A stretch of 64,000 nt of DNA, from the NCBI RefSeq assembly GCF_900106845.1, contig NZ_LT629847.1, forward strand, positions 1-64,000. The letters are read 5' to 3'. Shown in pieces: positions 33,434 to 38,228 of this stretch; the stretch's first letter is position 1, and each line of letters begins with the position of its first letter. The position numbers and the translations under genes are program-made. The stretch is from Romboutsia timonensis (GTDB lineage: Bacteria > Bacillota > Clostridia > Peptostreptococcales > Peptostreptococcaceae). A model generated the notes under the pieces. That model made no database searches, was not told the origin of the DNA, and was given only the letters and a program-made list of their open reading frames with translations.

Positions 33434-35341
33434 TTATTTTGAAACTAGTTTCTCTAATTCTTTAACTAAGGAATCAAATTTATTTATAGTATTCTCTATA
33501 GGCTTTGTACTTGTTAAATTAACACCCGCATCTTTTAGAACATTAATCGGATAATCAGACCCTCCTTTTTTAAGAAAGTTTATATAATTATCAGATCCAT
33601 TTTTTAATATATCTTGAGCAAAACTTACTCCTGCACTACATCCTGTAGCATATTTATAAACATAAAAACTATTATAGAAATGTGGTATTCTTGACCAACC
33701 AACTTTAGCTAATTGATCTAATTCATAATCTTTACCATAATATTTTGTTAGTAATTGTCCCCATATATCATCTAAAACTAATGCATTTATACTCTTGTTA
33801 TTCTCAACTAGTTCATGTATTGTCTTCTCAAATTCAGCATACATAGTTTGAATATATAAAGTATCTTTTATTAAGTCTAAATATTGAGTTATATAATATG
33901 CCTTTTGTTGATCATTTTCTGAATTTTTTATAAGCATTTCATATAATAATGCTTCATTAGTAGTTGATGCAACTTCATGAGTAAATATAGATGGATTTGA
34001 ATTAAAATAACTTTGATTTTTAGAGCTCATATACTCATATACTGCATGTCCCAATTCATGAGCTAATGTTGATACTGATCCCAATGAATTATTATAATTA
34101 AGCAATACATAAGGATGGTTACCATATATAGATAAACAGTACGCTCCACTCACTTTATTATCATTAGCAAAAGCATCTATCCATTTTTCATTAAATGCTT
34201 TATAAATTACATCTCCATATTCTTTCCCTAAAGGAGATAGTGCTGAATATATTATTCCTTGAGCCTTATCATAAGTTAGATTATCATCAACTGCTTCTAC
34301 CATTGGTGTAAACATATCATAATAATGTACCTTATCTAAATTTAATACCTTTTTTCTTAAACTTACATATTTATGAAGACTTTCCATGTTATCATTTACA
34401 GTTTCAATTAGTTTATTATATACTTTTTCATCTATGTCATCACCTTTTAAATACATGTCTAAAGATGATTTATATCCTCTTTCAGAAGAATAAAATACAT
34501 TTTTTTTAACTTGACCTATAAGTAAACCCGATAGCGTGTTTATATTATCATTATACGCTATAAACTCATTTTGATATGCACTTTTTCTTTCATTTCTATC
34601 TGAACTTTCTAAAGCTGTTTTATACTCTGCAGAATTAAAATTTGTTTTTTTATCCATGTTTTTAAATAATTCATAAACTTGCCCAGGCAAAGACGATATA
34701 GATGAAGTATTAGCAAGTAAACGTTCTGACTTTTCATCTAAATAATAGTCTTTAGATCGTCTAATTTCTTTTAAGTACATGCCATATTTTTTATTTAATT
34801 TTTTATCTTCCATAAACTTATTATATTCTTTATCTGATAACTTAAGTATTTCTAATTCCAAATCTGAACATATATTAGAGTACTCTCTATTTACCCTATT
34901 TATATTTTCTTTCATATCAATATACTTATATGAATTTTTATTAGTATCTTGGTTTAACTTTACGTATCCATAAAGTTTATTTAATCTTATATCTAATTTC
35001 TCTTTTATGTCTAATGCAAAAGATAAATGTGTTTTGGATTTAGTTACTTTTCCCACATAGTTTTTTAACTCTTTAGTATCTGAAGTAAACTTCTTTAATT
35101 CATTATTCCATTCATCTTCACTTTTATATAAATTTTGAAGACTCCAGCTAGTTTTGCTATAGTCAATTTTAGATTTATTTTCAGCTTTATCATTTTCTTC
35201 ATTATTTTTTTCTTCATCATTAACCATAGCTTCAACCACTGCTGTATCATTATATCTATCATTAGCTTTTTGTAATGATGTTGCTATAAATAAAATAAAT
35301 ATACACAATGATATAATGGATTTAACTAATTTTTTATTCAT
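33434..35341 (-). CDS. exported M3-family oligoendopeptidase F
   Basis: A 635-residue zinc peptidase. The M3 motif HELGH is at residues 428-432, in STLAHELGHAVYEYM, with a following glutamate region ASTTNEALLYEML. The M3/PepF layout covers the rest. It carries an N-terminal signal or anchor segment (KKLVKSIISLCIFILFIAT) followed by a Glu/Asn/Lys-rich linker of about 40 residues, so it should act outside the membrane, unlike cytoplasmic PepF. No signal-peptidase site is obvious. ATG 35341 is preferred over 35398 because AAGGATG lies just before it. That site lies in a hairpin. Confidence 0.88.
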   Translation of the reverse strand: MNKKLVKSIISLCIFILFIATSLQKANDRYNDTAVVEAMVNDEEKNNEENDKAENKSKIDYSKTSWSLQNLYKSEDEWNNELKKFTSDTKELKNYVGKVTKSKTHLSFALDIKEKLDIRLNKLYGYVKLNQDTNKNSYKYIDMKENINRVNREYSNICSDLELEILKLSDKEYNKFMEDKKLNKKYGMYLKEIRRSKDYYLDEKSERLLANTSSISSLPGQVYELFKNMDKKTNFNSAEYKTALESSDRNERKSAYQNEFIAYNDNINTLSGLLIGQVKKNVFYSSERGYKSSLDMYLKGDDIDEKVYNKLIETVNDNMESLHKYVSLRKKVLNLDKVHYYDMFTPMVEAVDDNLTYDKAQGIIYSALSPLGKEYGDVIYKAFNEKWIDAFANDNKVSGAYCLSIYGNHPYVLLNYNNSLGSVSTLAHELGHAVYEYMSSKNQSYFNSNPSIFTHEVASTTNEALLYEMLIKNSENDQQKAYYITQYLDLIKDTLYIQTMYAEFEKTIHELVENNKSINALVLDDIWGQLLTKYYGKDYELDQLAKVGWSRIPHFYNSFYVYKYATGCSAGVSFAQDILKNGSDNYINFLKKGGSDYPINVLKDAGVNLTSTKPIENTINKFDSLVKELEKLVSK

Positions 35342-35391
35342 AAAAAGCCATCCTTTCAATAGAATATACTTATTTATTAGGATGGCTTTTT
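35342..35391 (-). promoter_or_regulatory. hairpin covering the ribosome site of the M3 peptidase gene
   Basis: Two perfect 13-base arms (35342-35354 and 35379-35391) enclose a 24-base loop. On the minus strand the second arm is AGGATGGCTTTTT and abuts ATG. It therefore contains the Shine-Dalgarno sequence and ends in a T-run. It could be a translational switch, an attenuator or the terminator of an upstream transcript; sequence cannot decide. Confidence 0.6.
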
Positions 35392-35443
35392 TAGGCAATA
35401 ATATTCAATTTCTATCTTTGTAAAATTAATAATTATTATTAAT

Positions 35444-35771
35444 TTATCCACATACTTATCAACATATTAACAGATGTGTTTTCTACAAAAATCTAGATTT
35501 TTCAATATATTTATTATAACAATTTTTATTATATATTTATTTTATTTATATATTATCAACAATAATTATAGACTTATCAACATATTTAATAGCTTTTTAA
35601 TCATTTTTTATTGATAAGTCTATATTTATTTTAAAATTATATTTTTATATAAAAATTTTATACTTTGTGTATTTTTGTCAAACTTTGTAATTTCAATACT
35701 TACGCTTATTTTATATAAAAACCAAAAGTTATCCACATATTGTTAACAATTTATTCACATATTGTTGATAA
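35444..35771. other. cluster of DnaA-box-like 9-mers
   Basis: Two exact TTATCCACA boxes (35444, 35729), one TTATTCACA (35751) and TTATCAACA at 35456, 35553 and 35574 lie on the plus strand. One more TTATCAACA lies on the minus strand (35763-35771). Several are spaced 12 or about 21-22 bases apart. The region is very AT-rich and otherwise gene-free (gap 35392-35778). Confidence 0.7.
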
Positions 35772-35778
35772 CATTAAT

Positions 35779-38157
35779 TTAATTACTACATACTTTAGTA
35801 ACTAGCACTGTCATATCATCTTCAACAACCCCATCTTGTATCTCAAGTGCCCTATCTAGTATTAGATTTGCTATCTCTTTAGGATTAGTCGTTTTAATTT
35901 TTTGTAAGAAGTATATAAGCCAGTTATCTCCTAAGTTATTATTTTTACCTGCATCAAGTATTCCATCTGATACCATTATTATATAGTCACCGTAATTAAC
36001 TTTAGTTATCTTTCTATCTAGTTTTATATCTGAAAGTATTCCAACTGGAAGTGATGATGAAGATATTAAATCTATATCTTTATCATTTCTTTTTATATAA
36101 GTAGAACATGCTCCCATTTTTATAGTTTCCAAAGTTCCTTTTTTAAGATCTATTATTCCTAAATCTAAAGTTGAAAACATCTCTTCATCAGAAGACTTCA
36201 ATAGCAACATATTATTTATAGTATTTATAACTATTTCATCGTCTATCTTTGCATCCATCATTTTTTCTAAAATATCTATAGTTATATAAGATTCTTCATA
36301 AGCTTTCTTACCTTTACCCATTCCATCACTTATAGCCACCATATACTTACCATCACTTATATCCATATATGTATAGTTATCACCACATAATATATGTCCA
36401 TCTCTAGACATTCCTGCAACTTCTGTTATAGCTTTATATTTTTGGGCTTTAGTAAAGTTTATTTTACACTTTCCTCCTAGTGAATGACATCCAATCTTTT
36501 GTGCAGTAATATTTTCTTCTACTATATCTGAAAGTACTTTAGTTAATTTATTTTCACACATACATCCATCACTACATATGTTTTTATCTATAGTTATTTC
36601 AAAATCATCTAAACCTTTACTCATGTAACTAACTCTATTAACTGGTATTCCATATCTTTGTAACTGATCATAAATATTTTTTTCTTTTTCTAAATCTAAA
36701 ACAATATTACCTTCTAAATCTTTTGATAGTGATTCTATTGATTTTGATATGCTTTTTATTTGATTAGCTATCAATTTTCTACTTTCTGAAAATCTTAAGC
36801 TCCAATTATAATCTACTAAAAATAATTTATAATAATAATTTGCTATCTTTACAATCTCTTCAGGTTTTAAGCATTCCTTTCTAAAATCCTCACTAATACT
36901 TTCAATAGTAACCTGTCCGTTATCTTCAAGTTCTTCTAAAACTTGGCTCATTAACATATATGTATGAGAAAAATTTAAATCCCAACATCGTCTTCTCATA
37001 CTACAGTTTCTACATTCATCATTATGTATCATGTCAACAATATTTGCTATATCCCTCGTATCTATAACCTTATCTTTTTCTCTAATTTTATCAAATGTAT
37101 CTGCTAACTCATCATAAGCTTTATACATATTAATCAATTTACTATTAGTCATATCTTTACTTCTTCTTATATAATCATAAACTACGTCATTTGATTCTAT
37201 ATTTAATTTTAATAATTTTTCTATTTTATTAAATATTTTATTAGGTAATATAACTACTATCAAACTAGCTATTAACATGTCTCTAATTTGATGTATATTA
37301 GACTCAATTCCTGATGTATAAGCATATACCATTGCCCAACTTAGTACATATCCTAATATAGAAAAATATTTACCTAGTTTATTTAATGTTCCACCAACCA
37401 ATCCTGCAACAGAATATATTCCCATATAAATTGCTGAAGATATATTGTTAACTAAAAAGGCTATACCTACAACAACCCCAGAGCTAGCACCCATAGTTGC
37501 ACCACCTATTATACATGTAATTAATATTAATACTGTCGCTAAAACTGTTTGTATAGATACACCTAATATTTCTATATTACCAATACCTATTATGCTAAAT
37601 ATAGCTATAAAGCTTAAAGCTATAGATTCTTCAACTCTTACAGATATTCTATTATTTATATTTGTTATGAGGTTTATTCCAAATGAAAATATATAAATAG
37701 AAATAAATGTAATAATTGCTTCCATTGAGCATAATAATATATCATATAAATATTTATTAGATAATATAACTTGTCCTAATGATATAGGGAAAATTATAAA
37801 CGCTCCAATAAATGATAACTTCAAGTAAGAATTAATATTCTTTATTTTGTTACTTATAATCATAAATATAAATAAACAAATAATATACTTTAATATATAT
37901 GGAATAGAATTGCCAGATGATATTACTCCAATTATTGTAGATATGAATATCGGTATTCTATACCTTTCTACCTTACTTATACCTAAAAAAAATGCTATAC
38001 CTAAAGGTGCTATAGAGCCTATTAAAATTGTTCTACTTAATAAAAAACCTATCAAACTGAATATTATTACATTAGAATCAATATAATTTAACAAATGTAT
38101 ATTTATTTTTTCTGAATTAATATTATTCCTTGATATACTCATTGAACTCTTGTCCAT
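35779..38157 (-). CDS. spoIIE: stage II sporulation protein E (SpoIIE)
   Basis: SpoIIE is the septum-bound PP2C phosphatase that dephosphorylates SpoIIAA and so activates sigma-F in the forespore. The 792-residue protein has about ten membrane segments in residues 20-310 and a central regulatory region with several cysteines (NDECRNCSMRRRCW). The C-terminal phosphatase domain has SDGMGKGKKAYEES and SDGILDAGKNNNLGDNWL, with the metal-binding Asp. ATG 38157 (MDKSSMSISRNN) follows GGGAGGA; the longer frame lacks a site. Confidence 0.97.
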   Translation of the reverse strand: MDKSSMSISRNNINSEKINIHLLNYIDSNVIIFSLIGFLLSRTILIGSIAPLGIAFFLGISKVERYRIPIFISTIIGVISSGNSIPYILKYIICLFIFMIISNKIKNINSYLKLSFIGAFIIFPISLGQVILSNKYLYDILLCSMEAIITFISIYIFSFGINLITNINNRISVRVEESIALSFIAIFSIIGIGNIEILGVSIQTVLATVLILITCIIGGATMGASSGVVVGIAFLVNNISSAIYMGIYSVAGLVGGTLNKLGKYFSILGYVLSWAMVYAYTSGIESNIHQIRDMLIASLIVVILPNKIFNKIEKLLKLNIESNDVVYDYIRRSKDMTNSKLINMYKAYDELADTFDKIREKDKVIDTRDIANIVDMIHNDECRNCSMRRRCWDLNFSHTYMLMSQVLEELEDNGQVTIESISEDFRKECLKPEEIVKIANYYYKLFLVDYNWSLRFSESRKLIANQIKSISKSIESLSKDLEGNIVLDLEKEKNIYDQLQRYGIPVNRVSYMSKGLDDFEITIDKNICSDGCMCENKLTKVLSDIVEENITAQKIGCHSLGGKCKINFTKAQKYKAITEVAGMSRDGHILCGDNYTYMDISDGKYMVAISDGMGKGKKAYEESYITIDILEKMMDAKIDDEIVINTINNMLLLKSSDEEMFSTLDLGIIDLKKGTLETIKMGACSTYIKRNDKDIDLISSSSLPVGILSDIKLDRKITKVNYGDYIIMVSDGILDAGKNNNLGDNWLIYFLQKIKTTNPKEIANLILDRALEIQDGVVEDDMTVLVTKVCSN

Positions 38158-38192
38158 AAAAAAATCCTCCCTCTTTTGCTTTTTATAAGGAG

Positions 38193-38228
38193 ATTGTAGC
38201 AAAGAAAGTAGGATTTATTTTGTCATAA
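38193..38228 (-). promoter_or_regulatory. candidate Spo0A-activated spoIIE promoter with 22-base spacer
   Basis: On the minus strand ATGACA (38226-38221) and TACAAT (38198-38193) are 22 bases apart, too wide for ordinary sigma-A. This resembles Spo0A-dependent promoters of Bacillus spoIIG (22) and spoIIE (21). TTTGTCATA at 38219-38227 matches the Spo0A box TTTGTCRAA in 8 of 9 bases and overlaps the -35. Confidence 0.5.

Follow-up and report, generated by a model that had tools for sequence, protein, structure and literature searches.

A conserved DnaA-box cluster downstream of spoIIE in Romboutsia timonensis and other Peptostreptococcaceae, a candidate DnaA-titrating element

The DnaA-box cluster and its setting

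The stretch of DNA analyzed here (the window) comprises 64,000 nucleotides of R. timonensis (contig NZ_LT629847.1, positions 1 to 64,000). The cluster is located between the stop of spoIIE and the start of an M3 peptidase gene, both of which are encoded on the − strand. A one-mismatch scan of the window located seven DnaA boxes in 35444–35771, six of them on the + strand: two copies of the exact box TTATCCACA, four of TTATCAACA (one of them on the − strand) and one of TTATTCACA. Start-to-start distances of 12, 21, 22 and 12 were measured between boxes of the cluster. The non-coding stretch 35399–35778 is 85% AT, and the open reading frames (ORFs) and Pfam matches agreed with a gene-free interval between spoIIE and the peptidase gene. 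The two exact and five near-consensus boxes in about 330 bp, their spacings of 12 and 21–22 bases, the common orientation of six of them and the AT-rich, gene-free setting were thus all found as the original prediction had described them. The features of the locus, including two elements that were recognized besides the boxes, are as follows.

33434–35398, − strand: M3 peptidase gene, a neighbour outside the element (Pfam Peptidase_M3)
35444–35473, + strand: array A, with TTATCCACA at 35444 (A1), TTATCAACA at 35456 and a weaker ATATTAACA at 35464, spaced by 12 and 8
35485–35508, no strand assigned: AT-rich conserved element in the A–B interval, ACAAAAATCTAGATTTTTCAATAT; majority share 0.76–0.89 in the 9-bp windows starting at 35483–35501
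35553–35582, + strand: array B, with TTATCAACA at 35553 (B2) and TTATCAACA at 35574 (B1), 21 bp apart
35674–35696, + strand: el1, TTTGTCAAACT followed by the inverted repeat TTGTAATTTCAA, from the alignment and pattern search
35729–35771, no strand assigned: array C, with TTATCCACA at 35729, TTATTCACA at 35751 and TTATCAACA at 35763 (− strand)
35779–38202, − strand: spoIIE, a neighbour outside the element (Pfam SpoIIE_N and SpoIIE)

The peptidase gene starts at an ATG near 35340, and a TTG at 35398 is an alternative opening of its ORF. Directly 5′ of the ATG, a perfect 13-nt inverted repeat (AAAAAGCCATCCT / AGGATGGCTTTTT, 35342–35391) overlaps the likely ribosome-binding site of the gene. The upstream arm of this repeat was identical in 10 of 15 aligned rows, and four of the others end short there. 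A possible role of the repeat is to attenuate the peptidase gene or to switch its translation.

Box density, box forms and conservation

Over the full window, one-mismatch boxes were not enriched (29 observed and 23.4 on average in shuffles, with 12 of 100 shuffles reaching 29), nor were exact boxes enriched genome-wide (31 + 27 against 28 + 68 for the reversed pattern). Local density was compared with that of a 400-kb sample of the same genome, composed of twenty 20-kb stretches and holding 152 boxes (0.38 per kb), the genome beyond it being covered by pattern searches only. The original prediction had proposed a comparison of density with the dnaA locus and had named frequent occurrence of such densities in this genome as a result that would speak against it; the cluster held 7 boxes in 328 bp, the dnaA locus peaked at 8 per 328 bp, and the maximum in the sample was 3, so within the sample the adverse result did not appear. 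This is a density well over background, of the kind (several boxes in about 300 bp) that marks the extra-oriC DnaA-box clusters (DBCs) of Bacillus subtilis. In 5000 dinucleotide shuffles of 35399–35778, the mean was 0.17 boxes and the maximum 3. Stretches outside the sample that were picked for their box pairs reached 7 (dnaC–purA), 5 (contig C17, 104 kb) and 4 (contig C17, 47 kb, intragenic).

Box pairs were also counted over the whole genome. Direct TTATCMACA pairs at distances of up to 30 bp occurred three times, two of them in the cluster (controls: 0 forward, 1 reverse), and direct TTATNNACA pairs were no better than controls (11 + 8 against 12 + 8). Convergent TTATNMACA pairs were found at six places, namely two near dnaA, one at dnaC–purA, two at the cluster and one other; with four places in the reversed control, this count proves nothing alone. 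Divergent pairs occurred at a single place, at oriC, with none in the control. Loose pair counts fail to tell signal from chance across the genome.

To compare box forms, 30 dnaA loci were used, 24 from the Peptostreptococcaceae and 6 from other families of the order (one of them, L078, without its upstream side). The commonest one-mismatch forms near dnaA were TTATCCACA (114) and TTATCAACA (82). The TTATCAACA boxes of the cluster therefore have a form that is common at oriC, being the second commonest across the 30 loci. The cluster was confirmed as a genuine DnaA-box cluster, with DnaA binding predicted from the identity of its boxes.

Conservation in related genomes, a further check named by the original prediction, was evident within the family. 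The SpoIIE search matched 54 of 61 genomes, some weakly through a related domain, and 30 spoIIE loci were fetched, of which 29 were scored after L033 (contig end) had been left out. At least three boxes were present within 450 bp of the spoIIE stop in 27 of the 29 family loci and in 16 of 17 genera, the exceptions being L025 with one box and L030 with two. Judged by the titles of named loci, which form a second set, the cluster was present in Romboutsia, Faecalimicrobium, Clostridioides difficile, Asaccharospora, Metaclostridioides, Terrisporobacter, Intestinibacter, Paraclostridium, Tepidibacter and Alkalithermobacter. In this second set, which for the family consists largely of the same genomes, three or more boxes were found in 34 of 38 Peptostreptococcaceae loci, whereas none of the 22 loci from other families had more than two; two of the four family loci with fewer than three boxes are the two exceptions already named. 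For this comparison 60 of 80 loci were scored (L160, L182 and L195–L212 were left out), and the three-or-more-box counts were made by eye from box listings. Among spoIIE loci of other families that were fetched separately, the cluster was found in 0 of 10 (partly the same genomes as the 22), with L054 (contig end) unscored.

In an alignment of 15 genomes, chosen from the 29 for similar layout, the mean majority share was 0.917 for the boxes, 0.893 for el1 and 0.667 for the remainder, and shifting the box mask circularly never reached the observed conservation (0 of 379 shifts). Array A was near-invariant across the 15 aligned relatives. Some two thirds of the family genomes examined keep the spacing of the A–B core, about 140 bp long, nearly constant. 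From A1, the distances in R. timonensis are 130 bp to B1 and 109 bp to B2; under a box pattern less strict than the one-mismatch form, 19 of 29 genomes had A1–B1 at 127–133 bp, 14 of them at exactly 130, and 14 of 29 had A1–B2 at 109 bp. According to the alignment, this spacing is kept while the spacer itself has mostly drifted in sequence. The ten loci without it have different arrangements or too few boxes, and they include all five loci with a convergent neighbour (L034–L038; see below). Array C differs in position and occurrence from genome to genome: its TTATCCACA box lies 155 bp from B1 in R. timonensis, 144 bp in L013 and 85 bp in L020, and the array is apparently missing in L021, L027 and L028.

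Neighbouring genes, el1 and rival explanations

That AT-rich intergenic DNA together with a spoIIE terminator hairpin imitates a box cluster is a reading to which we give hardly any credence. A 20-nt inverted repeat (35561–35580 / 35611–35630) does overlap array B and could end spoIIE transcripts, and the consensus RNA fold, weak at −3.4 kcal/mol on one strand and −7.3 kcal/mol on the other, beats 30 column shuffles (mean 0.0). However, such a hairpin would account for array B only, and the terminator scan gave none; matches in the promoter and terminator scans were not above shuffles, and Rfam at gathering scores found no known RNA in the window. Chance is contradicted by the shuffles and the 400-kb genome sample, and the conservation islands coincide with the boxes. 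An accessory or relic replication origin, another option of the original prediction, is likewise very improbable and was rejected on DnaA-trio, GC skew and gene direction. The box density is oriC-like and an AT-rich spacer separates the box arrays, but a DnaA-trio run was found in 0 of 29 post-spoIIE stretches, whereas 25 of 30 dnaA loci have one directly downstream of the gene (one further run lay elsewhere). The GC skew of the window was negative in 16 of 16 4-kb bins (15 bins from −0.19 to −0.35, one at −0.095) with no sign change, and 50 of its 51 long ORFs are on the − strand, with no switch of direction at the cluster. The lack of a trio and of a change in skew sign makes the cluster an unlikely origin. 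The main oriC lies elsewhere, as had been expected: dnaA is on another contig in R. timonensis and is 156–206 kb from spoIIE in nine contigs of relatives.

The original prediction had also offered control of spoIIE read-through or of the peptidase gene, and here the neighbours of the cluster are informative. Bound DnaA would activate or repress either target and couple the gene to replication status, much as DnaA acts as a transcription factor at B. subtilis sda (PMC5295017). The cluster does lie directly 5′ of the peptidase gene and in the same direction in R. timonensis, and in 24 loci (L009–L032) the cluster is followed by a long ORF of matching direction, the peptidase identity being taken from R. 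timonensis only. In five genomes (L034–L038), however, the peptidase place is occupied by a convergent ORF of 220–226 aa, with no Pfam match for the one of the five examined, and the cluster is still present. Genome G025 has no SpoIIE match; there, a run of six boxes within 220 bp separates ppx from galU. This order was found in 3/3 examined genomes of the genus, with spoIIE and the peptidase gene absent from the place, and two of the three keep a spacing of 129/108 bp. In five other genomes without a full spoIIE, the 5 kb that follow ppx were free of a cluster; the gene context differs in four of these. A further genome gave no match to ppx. Promoter-like matches were below shuffles (7 against 9.3). 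Since the cluster is kept where spoIIE and the peptidase gene are both absent from the place, it probably does not serve as a switch for either of them, and control of the peptidase or of spoIIE was rejected; the fixed association with one regulated gene that marks the sda type was not seen, the neighbours being different or absent.

A composite replication–sporulation site was considered on account of el1, which in the relatives reads TTTGTCGAACTTTGNAATTNCAA and ends in the inverted repeat TTGNAATTNCAA. Its first part fits the Spo0A box, given as TGTCGAA (PMC5295017), and spoIIE adjoins. DnaA and a sporulation regulator would then compete or cooperate at the cluster, and entry into sporulation would alter the sequestration of DnaA. 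The pattern TTGTCGAANNTTGNNNTTNCAA was found in 13 of 61 genomes, once in each and always within 150 bp after spoIIE at the cluster, with no match for the reversed control; the pattern was drawn from these genomes, and its informative part is that it occurs nowhere else. Against a composite site, the exact pattern is absent from 48 of the 61 genomes, among them R. timonensis, whose el1 core is TGTCAAA, and G019, which has the same box layout as the named C. difficile loci. In addition, the cluster survives where spoIIE is missing, el1 exceeds a single Spo0A box in length, and TG[TA]CGAA was found directly 5′ of spoIIE in 0 of 24 loci. On balance, a composite site is rather improbable.

Known systems and the probable role of the cluster

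The distance between dnaA and spoIIE was 156–206 kb, or 4.6–6.2% of the contig, in eight of nine long contigs of relatives and 173 kb (9.3%) in the ninth; three of the nine distances assume a circular contig. By strand comparison, spoIIE lies downstream of dnaA in seven contigs and on the opposite side in G019 and G008. The distance could reflect gene order alone.

In B. subtilis, the gene after spoIIE is presumably yabS; if so, the place of the cluster may predate the Peptostreptococcaceae or have been found twice. Fig 3E of PMC4447404 presents yabS as a weak in vitro DnaA region with at least four boxes inside the gene. This region may be a remote counterpart of the present cluster. The six strongest extra-oriC regions of B. 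subtilis carry 4–11 boxes in 300 bp, with an apparent Kd near that of oriC, and none of the 20 regions in Table 1 of the same paper names spoIIE, dnaC or purA (PMC4447404). Removal of six extra-oriC clusters led to early initiation, an effect that was strong only with all six gone, so the weight of such clusters is unsettled; according to the review, no B. subtilis cluster with a significant role has been identified (PMC5295017). A 10-fold level of DnaA is described as causing no over-initiation in B. subtilis (PMC13220808). The R. timonensis cluster, a predicted DnaA-binding site, resembles the B. subtilis DBCs as a multi-box cluster outside oriC, and differs from them in place, in its A–B spacing and in el1.

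Fixed box geometry is a property of Escherichia coli datA and DARS. These are, like the present cluster, non-coding DnaA-box sites, and their relative distance from oriC is conserved; for the cluster, the similar relative distance in eight of nine contigs could come from gene order alone. Elements of the datA/DARS type alter the nucleotide state of DnaA, with IHF or Fis. For datA, DARS1 and DARS2, the relative distance is reported to matter as well as to be conserved (PMC5010248), and B. subtilis is described as being without all three (PMC13220808). The oriC1 and oriC2 regions of C. difficile are DnaA-box clusters in AT-rich intergenic DNA, and oriC2 carries a DnaA-trio and unwinds; the box searches described there cover a 4432-bp stretch around dnaA and the oriC intergenic regions (PMC7561715). 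The post-spoIIE cluster is similar in its AT-rich intergenic setting and in sharing the box forms found near dnaA, and it differs from oriC2 in lacking the trio. A literature search made mostly outside subscription papers found no report of a DnaA-box cluster at spoIIE in Peptostreptococcaceae.

Among the roles named by the original prediction, titration of DnaA is the best supported, and the block of about 330 bp is likely to be an autonomous, oriC-proximal element predicted to bind and titrate DnaA. Its presence in one genus without either neighbour at this place makes a part in timing chromosome copying more probable than a gene switch, and the cluster probably helps in such timing rather than switching its neighbours. 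DnaA would bind the block cooperatively. Lying about 5% of the chromosome from dnaA, the block would be copied soon after initiation; its high-affinity sites would then double early, free DnaA would drop, and re-initiation would be delayed.

A simple sink would need no fixed spacing, which counts against plain titration; the fixed A–B spacing suggests a defined DnaA complex instead of a loose sink, and the nearly fixed core may leave room for a more active role. It is possible, though not probable, that the A–B core (A1–B1 about 130 bp and A1–B2 about 109 bp), which two genomes without spoIIE at the place retain, corresponds in Gram-positive bacteria to datA/DARS. DnaA would then assemble on this non-coding DNA into a complex of fixed geometry, in which partners bound to the two further conserved elements might take part. 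Such a complex would change DnaA activity beyond sequestering the protein, and el1 would link it to a sporulation regulator in some Romboutsia-like lineages. We know of no datA/DARS-like element in Bacillota so far, and if the core does alter DnaA activity, it would be the first. The cluster combines a nearly fixed geometry with a nearly fixed place across much of the family, C. difficile included, and is untied to any single neighbour.

A second cluster, of seven boxes in 174 bp, occupies the gap that separates purA from dnaC, the gene of the replicative helicase, and lies about 21 kb from dnaA (L040, G000:C1:30600-32700, boxes 898–1071). Among stretches of relatives taken from near the position expected for dnaC–purA (L121–L132), a cluster of at least four boxes was present in 12 of 12, mostly in a similar arrangement. 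The post-spoIIE block may act jointly with this cluster, as the six B. subtilis clusters do. The two together provide two defined loci, and the relatives with and without the feature form a natural comparison set. A third cluster, of five boxes in 106 bp, was observed between a ribosomal S30AE-domain gene and a comFC-like phosphoribosyltransferase gene (L039, G000:C17:102500-105500, boxes 1381–1486).
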